Translations under genes and position numbers: made by a program
NCBI RefSeq assembly: GCF_001997295.1
Contig: NZ_CP019605.1
Location: 1,736,001 to 1,800,000 of the forward strand
DNA from: Tessaracoccus flavus
Lineage (GTDB): Bacteria > Actinomycetota > Actinomycetes > Propionibacteriales > Propionibacteriaceae
DNA: 64,000 nt
Direction: 5' to 3'
Shown here: positions 55,261-63,173 of the stretch, in pieces
Layout: every line of letters begins with the position of its first letter
Position numbering within the stretch: the stretch's first letter is position 1
Notes under the pieces: model-generated
Databases searched by the model: none
What the model was told of the DNA's origin: nothing
The model's input: only the letters and a program-made list of their open reading frames with translations

Positions 55261-55345
55261 GTCCGGGTGGCGGAATAGGTAGACGCGCTAGCTTGAGGTG
55301 CTAGTGCCCGTTAAGGGCGTGGAGGTTCAAGTCCTCTCTCGGACA
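55261..55345 (+). tRNA. tRNA-Leu (anticodon GAG)
   Basis: 85-nt type II tRNA. Acceptor arms GTCCGGG and CTCGGAC pair; the anticodon stem CTAGC / GCTAG encloses TTGAGGT with GAG in the middle. A long variable arm (TGCCCGTTAAGGGCGT) marks Leu, and the T arm has GGTTCAAGTCC. CCA is not encoded. DNA downstream is accessory in character. Confidence 0.95.
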
Positions 55346-55353
55346 CTTATTGA

Positions 55354-55821: not shown

Positions 55822-55896
55822 GGGACTGCTGACGGTTTGGTTGACTCCAAGATCGCATGACTCCCACGAAAGGGTCGTGCTGGAAGGATGGCATCC

Positions 55897-56190
55897 ATGC
55901 CGAAGATCGTTTACACCGACGAGTTCAAGCGCGACGCGGTCGCGCTTGTCGCCTCAGGCATCCCGCAGAAGCAGGTCGCCAAGGACATGGGGATGGCCAA
56001 GACCACCCTCCAAGCCTAGGTCCGCGACGCTCGCTTCCAGTCCCACGGGATGACCCCGACCACCGATCCTGAGCAGCGCAAGGACATGGCCCAGGCGTTA
56101 CGCCGGATCCGCGAGCTGGAGATGGAGAACGAGGTCCTACGGCGAGCGGCGGCGTATCTGTCGCAGGCTCACATCACGCCCCCAAAATGA
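55897..56190 (+). pseudogene. IS3-family orfA with premature stop
   Basis: MPKIVYTDEFKRDAVALVAS, HTH region GIPQKQVAKDMGMAKTTLQA, then TAG at 56017-56019 where the family has Trp (TGG), then VRDARFQSHG to the end LSQAHITPPK. The rest of the frame is intact, so a single base change explains the stop. Confidence 0.85.
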
Positions 56191-57072
56191 TCTACCCGCT
56201 CATGAAGGAGATGGCTGCGGTCGGTGCCCCCGTGAGGGTGCCGGTGGCGGTCGCGTGTCGGGTGTTGGGAAACTCCCAAACAGGGCTACTACAAGTGGCT
56301 CAAGCAGCCGGTCTCGGCCCGCGAGGCCGAAGAGCGTGAGCTGATCGCCGTGCTGCATCAGCTCCACGATGATGACCCGGAGGGCGGCTACCGCGTCCTG
56401 GCCGATGACATCACCGAGCTCGGGTACACACTCTCGGAGCGCAGAGTCTGGCGGCTGTGCCGGGTCGCCGGCATCCAATCGGTGTTCACCACGCGCAAGA
56501 CCCGGTACAAGAAAGCCGGCGCGCCCGTCCACGATGACCTGGTCAACAGGCAGTTCAGCGCCGACGGCCCCAACGAGCTATGGCTGACCGACATCACCGA
56601 GCACCGCACCCGCGAGGGCAAGGTCTACCTGTGTGCGATTAAGGACGTGTTCTCCAACCGGATCGTCGGCTACTCGATCGACTCGCGGATGAAGGCCCGG
56701 ATCGCCGTCAACGCGCTCGAGATGGCAGTGGCCCACCGAGGCCGGCCCGCCGGGGTGATCGTGCATTCCGACCGCGGGTCCCAATTCCGCTCCAGACGCT
56801 TCCTGAAGGCCCTCAAACGCCACAGGCTACGTGGCTCGATGGGCAGGGTCGGGGCAGGTGGCGATAACGCCGCGATGGAGTCGTTCTTCGCGCTACTGCA
56901 GAAGAACGTCCTCGACCGTCGATCCTGGGGCACACGAGAGGAACTGCGCCTGGCCATCGTGTCCTGGATCGAGGGCAAGTACCACCGCAAACGCCGTCAA
57001 CGCCGACTCGGGAAACTCACCCCCATCGAGTTCGAACTCATCATGAACCCAACCGCTACGCTGGCGGCATAA
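56187..57072 (+). pseudogene. IS3-family orfB (DDE transposase) with N-terminal frameshift
   Basis: Starts MIYPLMKEMAAVGAPVRVPV, then near 56275 one extra base shifts the frame; the second frame continues KQGYYKWLKQPVSAREAEER and runs to the end. The rve DDE core is otherwise complete: LWLTDITEH (Asp), VIVHSDRGSQF (Asp), DNAAMESFFALLQKNVL (Glu). Repair of one base would restore it, so decay is recent. Confidence 0.85.
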
Positions 57073-57127
57073 ACCCGGAGGTCAACCAGACCTTCAGCGG
57101 ACCCAACCCAACGGGGGGATTCTCATC

Positions 57128-57535
57128 ATGGAAGTACTCGGCCTGGCAGATGGGGCGGCTCTCGTCATCACGGGGATGGCGTCTCCACCGACAGCCGATG
57201 AGCCCCCAGGCCAGGGAACCTTGTCGCTCCCCGCGGAAGTCGCCACGTGGATTGGTGAGGCAGTCGCGGCCGGGGTCACGTTCGAGGTCTTGAAGGAGGC
57301 ATCCGTTGCGCTGGTTCGACAGGGCTGGACCAAGAAGGGAACGACCGCCACGGCCGAGTCAGTCACCCAGGCGGTCGTCCAGTACCTGCGCTCCTGCGGA
57401 TACATTGAAATTGTCGTGTCCGAGGTCAGGCGAGTCTCCGGTCAAGGTTGGACTCTGACCGGAACTGCGGACGGTTCTAGGTTCGGGGGAATGGCGGACG
57501 ACGGCGGCAACTTGGTGCATGTCCGCGTCAGATGA
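57128..57535 (+). CDS. Small unknown protein encoded with a CHAT protease
   Basis: 135 residues, MEVLGLADGAALVITGMASP. Residues about 33-85 are predicted helical (LPAEVATWIGEAVAAGVTFE with VLKEASVALVRQGWTKKG), and the C-terminal part looks like beta hairpins (IEIVVSEVRRVSGQGWTLTG then TADGSRFGGMADDGGNLVHV). No signal peptide or known domain. Its stop lies 17 bp inside the CHAT gene, so they are translationally coupled. This suggests a partner, adaptor or substrate of the protease; this is inference. A G-rich RBS (57111-57116) precedes the ATG; the native promoter region has been displaced by the IS3-family element. Confidence 0.75.
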   Translation: MEVLGLADGAALVITGMASPPTADEPPGQGTLSLPAEVATWIGEAVAAGVTFEVLKEASVALVRQGWTKKGTTATAESVTQAVVQYLRSCGYIEIVVSEVRRVSGQGWTLTGTADGSRFGGMADDGGNLVHVRVR

Positions 57536-60167
57536 CACCTGGCCCACTCCAGAGAACCTGCGCGCTGTCCAGGTTTGGCTGAACCACCTCGACGATCTCA
57601 GCGAGAGCCAACCGCAGGCTGTTCTGGACGCAACTGAAGCGGCTTTGCCCTTGCTCGCGACCTGGACGGTCAGTGACGCATACGCATGGACGCTGGCGCT
57701 ACGTGCCAAGACGCTCCGCTTTCTCGACAGACTCCCTGACGTTCTCGATGCGGCCGAGTCAGGGTTGGGATCTCTCCGCGGCGACGAACATGTCGCCGCG
57801 CATCTGCACCTGGAAGCAGGCATGGCGCTGAACCAGTTCGGGAGGCAACCCGAGGCCGCAGAGCACCTGAAAGCAGCGGACAGGGTGTTCGAGTCAGCAG
57901 GTGACGATAGCGGGCGCGCGTGGGCCTTGGTTTCGTTGGCCGAGGCATACGCGGGCAGCGGTATACCCACTGATCCAGAGGCAACCTTAAGGCTAGCGAT
58001 TGATCTCGCCGACCGTTCAGGCGACTCGCGCGCGGCGCGGCGCGGGTGGAAACAACTCGCGGTGCTGCACAGGCACCGCGGCCAGCCCACAGAGGCCCTT
58101 GACGCGATCTGGCGCGCGCTGGATGGCGACATGTCTGCGCACACGCGCGCCAACTATCTGCTCGAACTCGGTCACCTGAAAGCGTGGACCGGGGACTACG
58201 CGGCGGCAGACGACGCCTACCAAGACGCGTCAGCTTCGTATGCTGACCACGGCGACATCCTCGGCCAAGCGAACGTTGAGCGCGCGCTCGCCACCAACGC
58301 TCTCATCTTGGGCCGCCACATACAGGCAGCCAAGAGGCTCGACCGGGCGGCCGAACTTTACCGGGCTATCCGCTCCACGGCTGGTCTCGGCTACGTCCTG
58401 CGGGAACGGGCGGTGTTACGCACAACCAGTGGCGACCACATCGGCGCGCTCGCCGACACCGAAGAGGGACTGTTGTGCTTTCGGAACAGTCCCGACACGC
58501 TCGGGCTCGCCGGGATGCTGCGCGCCGCAGCCAGGGTTCGCCACGTTACTGGCGACCGCGCCGGTGCTGGTGCCGCCCTCGCGGAGGCTCACGCTCTTGC
58601 CGCCGGCGGCAAGAATCCGCTTGCGGAGGCCGGGCTACTGTCGCTCAGCGCCGAGATCGGGGATACGGCATCGCTGCGTCTTGCCGCTGGCACAGAGTCG
58701 GCTCGGCTCTACCGCCGGATGGGGATACCTACCGGAGAGGCGTTTGCATTGTCGCACGCAGCCCGGGCACACGCGGATCTCGGAGACGTCGACCGTGCAG
58801 TGGCCACCATTCGTGAGGCAACCGCAGTACTCCGCTCCGCCCGAAGCCAAGTCGCGGACCCGGGTCGGCGCGGTGATCACGACTTCGCGCTGCGTGACGT
58901 AACCACGAACCTGCTCAAAACCGCCGAACGGCTCGGCGGTCTAGCGACTCTGGTCATGGCTGATCTGATTGTTGATGAAGCCCCGCTCGGCCTCCGGAAC
59001 GCATTCAACGAGGGTCAGCCTGGCGCTCGCGCCAGGCGTTTCGTGTCCCGCATCTCGACAATGAAGCCCCCCCTCGGGGAGACGTCCGCCACGCGACGCC
59101 ACCTCATCCAGGAGCTCGGTGCGCTATTTGCATTCATCGAACCCGGTGAGGATCCCGTCTGGACCAGTTTCGAGGACCTCGCCTCCTCACACTCGAGCGG
59201 TGCCCTCCTGGCATACGGGGCTCCGACCCGGGATGGACATCTGCCCATCGCTTGGCAGCTGCCCGGCGGCAGGCCGCACGTCGACCTCGTCGGGCTCGAT
59301 GACGCTGCTGTCGAACAGATCGATGCTCTCGGCTACGCCTTCACCGCCGACCGCGCAGACGTACTGTGGGTTCCGCAGAACCGGTCTTGGCAGACTCATT
59401 TGTCCCAAGTCGTGCTGCCGTCGCCGGTCCGTCGCTGGCTCACCGGCGAAGAGTCGCCCTCACTCGCCGTGCTGTTCCCGCCGGTCCTGGCGCACCTCCC
59501 CTTGGAGGCGCTGCTCGTGGATGGTGAGCCGGTTGGCCTCCGGGCCGCTGTCGCTCGTTTGACTGTCCCAACAACGGCCACAGTCCGCGCAACCCTGAGC
59601 CAAACCGTCGCCTACCTCGATCCAGCGCTGCCCTGGACCCCCGAACGGCTGGCACTCCCCGGCTTCACCCACGACCCCAGGCAACTTCGCGCCGAGTTGG
59701 GACCCGCCCGACTCCTATTCGTTGCCTGTCACGGCGAGTCTGCAGTCCGCGCCGAAGGCGCCCTCGTGGCCAGTGATGGCGCACGCGTCGCGGACGCCCT
59801 CGATCTCGTGGCACATCCCCTAACCGGCAGCGTCATTGTCCTCGAAGCCTGCTTCGCGGGCCGCTACATGGGTCCACGCACCGGAGAGCAGCTCAACCTC
59901 GCCACAGTGAGTCTCCTTTCTGGCGCGAGCGCAGCCGTCGCGGGCCTTTTCGCCCTCCCTGCGGACGACTCGTGCACCGGGGCGATCGCGGCAGCCCTGT
60001 TCCGCGAACTCGCAGCTGGCACATCCGCACCCGAGGCTCTCCGTCGCGCACGGTGGGCCTACTGGTCCGAAAGACCGGACCACTTGGGAGTACCGGGACA
60101 ACCCGAGCTGTCCATGCCCGGCGATGCGCCTTGGGCCTGGGCCGGCCTCTGCGCATACTCCCGTTGA
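57519..60167 (+). CDS. TPR-CHAT (caspase-like) protease
   Basis: 882 residues. N-terminal about 450 residues form a helical TPR array (EHVAAHLHLEAGMALNQFGR; HTRANYLLELGHLKAWTGDY with AAADDAYQDASASYADHGDI). A linker region follows (about 480-600). The C-terminal CHAT domain (about 610-882) carries His738 in LLFVACHGESA and Cys778 in VIVLEACFAGRYMG, the caspase-type dyad, then LLSGASAAVAGLFALPADDS and EALRRARWAYWSE. CHAT proteases with TPR sensors occur in bacterial conflict systems, for example the Csx29 protease of type III-E CRISPR. No CRISPR genes are here. Cytosolic. The trigger and target are unknown. Confidence 0.88.
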   Translation: MSASDDTWPTPENLRAVQVWLNHLDDLSESQPQAVLDATEAALPLLATWTVSDAYAWTLALRAKTLRFLDRLPDVLDAAESGLGSLRGDEHVAAHLHLEAGMALNQFGRQPEAAEHLKAADRVFESAGDDSGRAWALVSLAEAYAGSGIPTDPEATLRLAIDLADRSGDSRAARRGWKQLAVLHRHRGQPTEALDAIWRALDGDMSAHTRANYLLELGHLKAWTGDYAAADDAYQDASASYADHGDILGQANVERALATNALILGRHIQAAKRLDRAAELYRAIRSTAGLGYVLRERAVLRTTSGDHIGALADTEEGLLCFRNSPDTLGLAGMLRAAARVRHVTGDRAGAGAALAEAHALAAGGKNPLAEAGLLSLSAEIGDTASLRLAAGTESARLYRRMGIPTGEAFALSHAARAHADLGDVDRAVATIREATAVLRSARSQVADPGRRGDHDFALRDVTTNLLKTAERLGGLATLVMADLIVDEAPLGLRNAFNEGQPGARARRFVSRISTMKPPLGETSATRRHLIQELGALFAFIEPGEDPVWTSFEDLASSHSSGALLAYGAPTRDGHLPIAWQLPGGRPHVDLVGLDDAAVEQIDALGYAFTADRADVLWVPQNRSWQTHLSQVVLPSPVRRWLTGEESPSLAVLFPPVLAHLPLEALLVDGEPVGLRAAVARLTVPTTATVRATLSQTVAYLDPALPWTPERLALPGFTHDPRQLRAELGPARLLFVACHGESAVRAEGALVASDGARVADALDLVAHPLTGSVIVLEACFAGRYMGPRTGEQLNLATVSLLSGASAAVAGLFALPADDSCTGAIAAALFRELAAGTSAPEALRRARWAYWSERPDHLGVPGQPELSMPGDAPWAWAGLCAYSR

Positions 60168-61248: not shown

Positions 61249-62247
61249 TCAAGTAGTTGGCAGGATTTCTTCTTGTTCAAAGGTGGGTGTTGTCGTGCTG
61301 GCGCGGCCGAGGTGGACCTCGAGGGGCCGGTTCCAGGCGATCGCTTCGTGGGGGCGCTGGGTGTTGTATTCGATGCGGTAGTCCTCGGCTCGTTCGACCA
61401 GGGTGAGCGCGTCGGCGATCTCGTCGAGGAACAAGCGTTCGTACTTCAATGTCCCGAACCCGCGTTCGCGTGAGCCGTTCTGCCCGGGGCTCTTGACCCG
61501 AGTCCGGACGTGTCTCAGCTCGGGGTGCGAGGTGATGAACAACTCGAAGTCCAACGACCTGAACGGGCCACCGTTGTCGGTGACGATAGTGACCATGGGC
61601 AGCACTTCCCCAGTGACCTCATCGATAGGGCAGGCCTCGGCCAACGGGTGTCCGAACAGGGCCTCGTAGTCAGCCAACGCGAGCTCGACCGCGGCGATCG
61701 CGTCGTGCTTGTTCCCGGTGGGTGAGACATGCCACGTGTGCTCATACTTCGAGTACCAATCCCGGCATCCTGCGATCCGCCACGTCCACCCGAGGTGGTC
61801 TCGAACTCGGAGAAGTCCAACTGCCACACCTGGTTCGGGCCATCAGGGGTCTTCGCGAACGCGGCCCTCCGGTCAGCGGCGAGGTCACGGCGCTGCTTCT
61901 GGTATTCCGAGGCCAGTAGCAGGCCCTCGTCACGCAGCAGCCGCAGCACGGTCGCCTGAGAGGCCTTGTGTCCGGCGTGACGGGTCAACGCCCAAATCTT
62001 GCGATGCCCCCCACGCCGGCTTAGCCAGCGCATGACCCACCACCAGATCCCGCGCAGCCGTACGAGCCGGCTGGGGCCACGGCCCCTTCGGACGGCGATC
62101 CTGACGGGCCTTGGCCTGCCACCGGCGCCACGTGCGTTCGGGCATGTCGATCAGCTTCACGAACCTCGCGGTCGACATGCCCGCCTCCCTGCGGATCACC
62201 TCGAGGTCCTCGAAGGGCCCAACCTGCCCTTCGCCGACTTCTTCCAC
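61249..62247 (-). pseudogene. IS3-family orfB with two frameshifts
   Basis: Three frames join to a DDE transposase: STARFVKLIDMPERTWRRWQ (from 62247), then HRKIWALTRHAGHKASQATV to NQVWQLDFSEFETTSGG (second frame, shift near 62000). The last piece is YSKYEHTWHVSPTGNKHDAI, MVTIVTDNGGPFRS and GSRERGFGTLKYERL (third frame, shift near 61790). The catalytic residues are present but split across frames, so it is inactive as read. Confidence 0.85.
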
Positions 62248-62513
62248 ACCCGAATCTCGACAGCGGCCTCACCCAACGCCTGAGTCAGCTCAGTGACCTC
62301 CGCCTCCAACTGCTGCTCCCGGGTCGAGGGCCCAGACCTACCCGCCGCCAGCCCAGCCTTGCCCGCTTCGAGGAAGTCAGCCTTCCACCGACCGATCGAC
62401 TGCTCACTGACCTTCTCCCGCCGAGCGGCCTCAGCGATCGTCATCTCTCCAGCCAAGATGCTCAACACAATCCTGGTCTTCTTCTCCACCGGAATCACTG
62501 GTGGTCTTCCCAT
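62196..62513 (-). CDS. IS3-family orfA
   Basis: 105 residues, intact. MGRPPVIPVEKKTRIVLSIL, HTH MTIAEAARREKVSEQSIGRW, then a leucine-zipper-like coiled coil (STREQQLEAEVTELTQALGE). It overlaps orfB by about 50 bp as in IS3 elements that use programmed -1 frameshifting. Confidence 0.85.
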   Translation of the reverse strand: MGRPPVIPVEKKTRIVLSILAGEMTIAEAARREKVSEQSIGRWKADFLEAGKAGLAAGRSGPSTREQQLEAEVTELTQALGEAAVEIRVWKKSAKGRLGPSRTSR

Positions 62514-62570: not shown

Positions 62571-63173
62571 ATCACCAACTACCGCACGGCCCACGTCCCC
62601 GAGGGCCACCGACTACTGCTGCCCCGAGAGAACGGCAAGAGCATCGACCGGCACATGGTCACCCGCTTCATCAACAAGGCCGGCGCCGCCGCCGGACTCG
62701 GCCACATCCACCCCCACCAGCTGCGGCACACCCTCGCCACCCAGGCCATCAACCGCGGCATGTCGCTCGAAGCGATCGCCGCCATGCTCGGCCACAAATC
62801 GATGGACATGACCCTGGTCTACGCCAAGATCGCCAACCGGACCGTCGCCGAGGAGTACTTCACCGTCGCGGAGAAGGTCGACGCCCTCTACGCCCGCCCC
62901 GCCGAGCTCCCCGCCGACGACCTCGGGCCGAACATGGCCCGCCTGAACCGCGAACACTCCCGCATGCTCGGCAACGGCTACTGCATCAGACCCCAGATCA
63001 TGGACTGCATCTACGAGACGATCTGCGAGTCCTGCACCTTCTTCCAGACCACCATCGAGTTCCGCCCCACCCTGCTCGCCCAACGCGACGACGCCTGCGC
63101 CAAGGGCCAGATCCGCCGCGCCGAGATCTACGACAACCTGCTCACCGGCCTCGACACACACGAAGCCTCTTGA
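62571..63173 (+). pseudogene. Tyrosine recombinase, N-terminus missing
   Basis: About 200 residues of an XerC/integrase-type enzyme: HIHPHQLRHTLATQAINRGM (catalytic HxxR), LGHKSMDMTLVYAK (His and Tyr nucleophile), then a Cys-rich C-terminal extension (CIYETICESCTFFQTT). The coding sequence is open right up to the IS end at 62570 and has no start, so the first half was removed. I found no N-terminal half on the other side of the IS, which suggests deletion rather than simple insertion. Confidence 0.8.

Follow-up and report, generated by a model that had tools for sequence, protein, structure and literature searches.

A small gene paired with a TPR-CHAT protease gene in Tessaracoccus flavus: a rare mobile two-gene unit of actinobacteria and candidate conflict module

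Why is a gene for a small protein placed directly ahead of, and overlapping with, a gene for a TPR-CHAT protease? This question is raised by two genes in a stretch of 64,000 nucleotides of Tessaracoccus flavus (contig NZ_CP019605.1, positions 1,736,001 to 1,800,000; here called the window), for which an original prediction had proposed an undescribed conflict module. Both open reading frames (ORFs) are present, one of 135 residues overlapping by 17 nt one of 882 residues. In actinobacteria, we found the two genes to travel together as a mobile unit of rare occurrence. Whether this unit is a protease module in which the protease is accompanied by its own small regulator is, in our opinion, evenly balanced. 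The pair probably acts in defence or self-killing, as a costly conflict effector.

The pairing of the two genes is conserved. In all six genomes where it was found, the small gene immediately precedes a TPR-CHAT gene of one family, as had been expected, which gives good support to the idea of a dedicated partner. These paired loci are L026, L027 (Nocardia niigatensis), L028 (a Frankiaceae metagenome-assembled genome), L034/L039 (Millisia brevis), L072 (genome G1105) and the window; L030 is the same Frankiaceae sequence as L028, and the match in G1183 is that of L026, so each was counted once. N. niigatensis has the same 17-nt overlap, as do L026 and L072, near copies of one another, provided that translation begins there at the same start codon and not at that of their longest frame, which lies further upstream. 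The Frankiaceae genes overlap by the 4 nt of ATGA. There is one small gene per genome, both in the four genomes behind L026 to L029 and in three from the order draw, and Millisia, with three further CHAT matches, has no second one. Seven longest-contig sizes (3372, 5064, 10337, 11385, 38703, 3616 and 1600609) are common to the homologue lists of the two proteins, which implies seven further pairs on one contig each, Kribbella ginsengisoli among them. The two proteins also diverge in parallel, as their pairwise distances correlate with r = 0.90 (12 pairs, first 400 protease residues, with two rows representing interrupted genes by their N-terminal piece), a value reached by none of 20000 permutations.

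The small protein belongs to a family of its own. Of two overlapping homologue lists, one contained 15 proteins, including a near copy of that of the window, and the other 38. Six residues are invariant over the approximately 40 aligned members, and the small ORF is accordingly a genuine gene. Based on the alignments and a structure model, the protein consists of an N-terminal beta hairpin, a variable linker (residues ~15-34), a helical pair with an AAGVTFEVLK motif and a C-terminal alpha+4-beta domain. The predicted local distance difference test score (pLDDT) of the model is 72, with poor order in the linker (46-48 for residues 21-40) and a folded structure predicted for the rest of the protein. 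No credible match was obtained in Pfam, PADLOC, NCBIfam or PHROGs. Scanning 40 family members gave scattered matches only, with E values of 0.035 or worse in Pfam and, for one or two members each, 2.3e-4 at best in NCBIfam. The pair was apparently described in no paper of the literature searched, to which most subscription journals do not belong, so within the searches made the label "undescribed" holds.

The large protein is a member of the CHAT peptidase family PF12770, and it is predicted to be proteolytically active. The match covers residues 719-878 of 882 with 51 bits against a cut-off of 24, and the intact dyad His738 and Cys778 is invariant in all 29 aligned relatives, 25 of which match PF12770 at an E value of 0.01. 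Ahead of the CHAT domain, TPR_12 matched four stretches at a lax limit (E 10), with 27.8 bits, just below its own cut-off of 30.1. The structure model (pLDDT 91.6) resembles separase and Csx29, the TPR-CHAT protease of Craspase. It contains a TPR superhelix (~10-445), a hinge with an RRxDHD motif (450-455) and two caspase-like halves, drawn by analogy with Csx29, the first (~561-700) judged to be non-catalytic and the second (~701-882) to be the catalytic CHAT half with both dyad residues. Compared to PF12770 at large, the window protease represents a distinct actinobacterial branch with the small partner gene at every genome locus found. A second TPR-CHAT gene in the same genome (G000 1403698-1404339) belongs to another branch and scores 28.6 bits against the family profile. 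Seven terminator-like hairpins, against 1.4 expected, were present between 56900 and 60400; all are within the protease gene (58058-59911) and three are variants of one hairpin.

If the small protein is indeed a regulator, the TPR superhelix of this separase- and Csx29-like cysteine protease would be the sensing or docking arm and the CHAT domain the executioner. The small folded protein would be translated just ahead of the protease and coupled to it, and may bind the protease and keep it silent or set its trigger, like an antitoxin or a securin-type regulator. The gene order and overlap fit a toxin-antitoxin resemblance. Most plausibly, the trigger would be an invading phage or mobile element, upon which the regulator would be displaced or cut and the CHAT domain would cleave a cellular or invader protein, by which the cell would be stopped. 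A more specific version, which we regard as doubtful, is that of a CRISPR-independent, separase-like immune protease with a small folded inhibitor-sensor, i.e., a bacterial two-component "separase-securin" in which the alpha+4-beta (cystatin- or PepSY-like) partner would restrain the cysteine protease until displaced by an invader. Separase itself is eukaryotic, and its inhibitor securin is largely disordered, whereas the small protein is predicted to be mostly folded. What is understood of bacterial TPR-CHAT proteases in the literature searched comes from Csx29, which is CRISPR-bound. A compact system of two genes, one of them for a dedicated partner of an unnamed family, would reveal how these enzymes are controlled in the absence of RNA guides. 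Both trigger and substrate could be sought in such a simple system, which would also parallel, in prokaryotes, the control of separase.

The pair is accessory and does not belong to the core genome. Searching 60 genomes, of which 35 are other genomes of the same genus, 58 were without a match to the small protein, one (G040) gave a chance-level match of 20.7 bits and only the genome of the window itself gave a true match. In genome draws that overlap one another and were searched at first-look limits, the small protein was found in 1 of 396 genomes of the phylum (again its own) and 3 of 391 of the order, and the protease in 2 of 394 of the class, 0 of 38 of the genus of G036 and 1 of 148 of the genus of G834 (the N. 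niigatensis locus). A pattern scan of genome contigs for the protease gave four loci. The genes are also lost or interrupted. Two CHAT fragments remain in genome G003, of the same genus, with no small gene found next to them. In N. niigatensis the CHAT frame ends after 537 residues and is followed by an insertion sequence (IS) of the IS3 family (transposase, 331 bits against a cut-off of 160) and then by the rest of the CHAT gene. Both Millisia contigs end at CHAT residue 406, at what is probably a repeated element, so that this gene is probably IS interrupted as well. Such interruption fits with a costly gene but also with plain decay.

The neighborhoods of the pairs differ strongly. Clear defence-type neighbors were present in one of the five contexts examined, the Frankiaceae locus, where the pair is accompanied by a DUF4365 protein (120 bits), an RmrA-like XRE-M78 protein (304.5 bits) and a ThiF/E1-like protein (96 bits). 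L026 is not among the five, as the shortness of its contig does not allow its context to be judged. The defence-like stretch that adjoins this pair (L028 2104-9463) also encodes unnamed proteins. In L072 the pair is located behind an IS256 transposase gene in a sugar-nucleotide locus (RmlA, dTDP-glucose dehydratase, fucose synthase and UDP-glucose dehydrogenase), the Millisia pair adjoins ABC transporter genes and the Nocardia pair adjoins IS21, ATP-grasp and FGase-like genes. Beside this interrupted Nocardia pair there is a low-GC3 cluster (L027 14163-16872) for a RimK-type ATP-grasp protein, an FGase-like protein and an unnamed protein. Around the window pair, the tRNA island is rich in IS and encodes one SLFN_AlbA_2/HATPase protein. 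A conflict module is what we infer, with clear support by context from the Frankiaceae locus only.

Several points weigh against a defence module with its own regulator. Four of the five contexts are not clearly defence-like, and the binding and inhibition of the protease by the small protein are what we infer. Decay and IS insertions also befall genes that are merely useless, and the Millisia small frame diverges from the family towards its end, suggesting that this pair may be decaying. Shared descent accounts for part of the distance correlation, in which 7 of the 12 pairs were assigned from the contig-size match alone. Between L026 and L072 there are eight synonymous and seven nonsynonymous changes in the CHAT gene and none in the small gene, differences that are too few for a firm estimate of selection.

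The contexts without clear defence neighbors would also agree with a selfish or regulatory accessory protease without a role in phage defence, such as an addiction unit of the island or a regulator of development or cell division. The ties with mobile elements point in the same direction: the tRNA island, the IS3 element 31 nt upstream of the window pair and the IS256 transposase gene upstream of the L072 pair. However, the sporadic distribution and the loss of the genes speak against a housekeeping or developmental role. For an addiction unit, carriage on plasmids might be expected, but neither protein was matched in the phage, plasmid or viral-contig collections at the limits used. Overall, we consider this explanation somewhat unlikely.

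The comparison with Csx29 raises the possibility that the small protein is a dedicated substrate. According to PMC10028731, Csx29 cleaves Csx30, a partner of about 565 residues encoded at its own CRISPR locus. By analogy, the TPR region would sense a trigger and the CHAT domain would cut the linker, which is variable and of low pLDDT, and the freed piece would be toxic or signalling. The partner here is much smaller than Csx30, and the conserved cleavage site that was looked for in the small protein is not evident by eye in the linker alignment, yet Craspase orthologues cut a non-conserved site, as stated in the title of a paper in ACS Chem Biol. We regard a substrate role as unlikely. The window protease has the TPR-CHAT fold of Csx29, as judged from the model, but is only about 10% identical to it, and the NCBIfam model NF041237 gave 10.2 bits against a cut-off of 300. 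A simple k-mer test revealed no CRISPR-like repeat array in L037 or, as had been noted, in the window; cas genes were not searched genome-wide. Membership in Csx29 was thus rejected. In agreement with the prediction, no Pfam match to a gasdermin or an NTPase sensor was seen among the island and neighbor proteins scanned, a set that excludes the rest of the window and some neighbors of the homologues.

The second system compared is that of the EACC1-caspase pairs (System 4 of Kaur et al. 2020, PMC7159879; EACC1 and EACC2 systems are treated there and in PMC8195603), which are actinobacterial and have a small constant 5' component and a 3' caspase-clan enzyme. Their caspase domain is N-terminal with variable C termini, whereas the CHAT domain of the window protease is C-terminal, behind the TPRs, and the single transmembrane helix of their small component is doubtful in the small protein here. 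PF19953 (EACC1) was not among the 20 families matched by any of the 40 small-family members at E 10, and a profile-profile comparison (hhalign) with nine EACC1 proteins gave a probability of 0.2, against 100 for a split-family control. Membership was rejected, as the small protein is not EACC1 and the caspase-clan domain is not N-terminal. That the small protein is a sensor or activator without which the TPR-CHAT protein is inert, as proposed for the EACC1 component, we consider improbable, since the shared gene order and a hydrophobic segment rich in small residues (AVAAGVTFEVLKEASVALV) are set against a lack of detectable homology to EACC1 and a peak 19-residue hydropathy of 1.29-2.01 across 12 proteins, with charged residues inside the segment, which makes a membrane helix doubtful. 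With membership in EACC1 and Csx29 rejected, we class the pair as a putative two-gene caspase-clan conflict module outside both.

Table 1. Features of the window that belong to the pair and to the surrounding island
Feature	Position	Strand	Basis or remark
tRNA-Leu (gag), left island boundary	55261..55346	+	Confirmed
IS3-family element	55830..57096	+	Transposase ORF 56350-57072; ends 31 nt before small gene; ends set by eye from imperfect inverted repeats
Small partner gene	57128..57535	+	135 aa; ORF list, homologues, alignments, structure model
Overlap of the two genes	57519..57535	+	17 nt
TPR-CHAT protease gene	57519..60167	+	882 aa; ORF list, Pfam, alignment, structure model
Transposase gene pieces (rve_3/HTH_Tnp_1) 3' of pair	61249..62513	-	Pfam
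Tyrosine recombinase C-terminal fragment	62655..63173	+	Phage_integrase, profile 111-169 of 172

The pair is part of an island beside a tRNA-Leu gene that contains recombinase and IS debris, as had been noted (Table 1). Outside the window, some 11.3 kb downstream (window-equivalent 66627), there is a 16-nt copy of the 3' end of the tRNA gene, which gives the island an att-like boundary and a length of about 11.3 kb. Partly beyond the window, the island also holds a piece of a Mutator-type (IS256-like) transposase gene and the SLFN_AlbA_2/HATPase_c_4 gene (L037 14547-16046, window-equivalent 63546-65045), whose protein has pAgo/Aga-type PADLOC matches of 34-55 bits. In all four relatives fetched, which are among the best-matching ones, DUF3224 and tRNA-Leu are found together, in three of them with UppP; none of the genes located behind the island in the window genome was seen after the tRNA in the stretches of these relatives that were examined. 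In relative G021 a tyrosine integrase gene directly follows the same tRNA-Leu (L067 6403-7871), which suggests that integration has occurred repeatedly at this tRNA.
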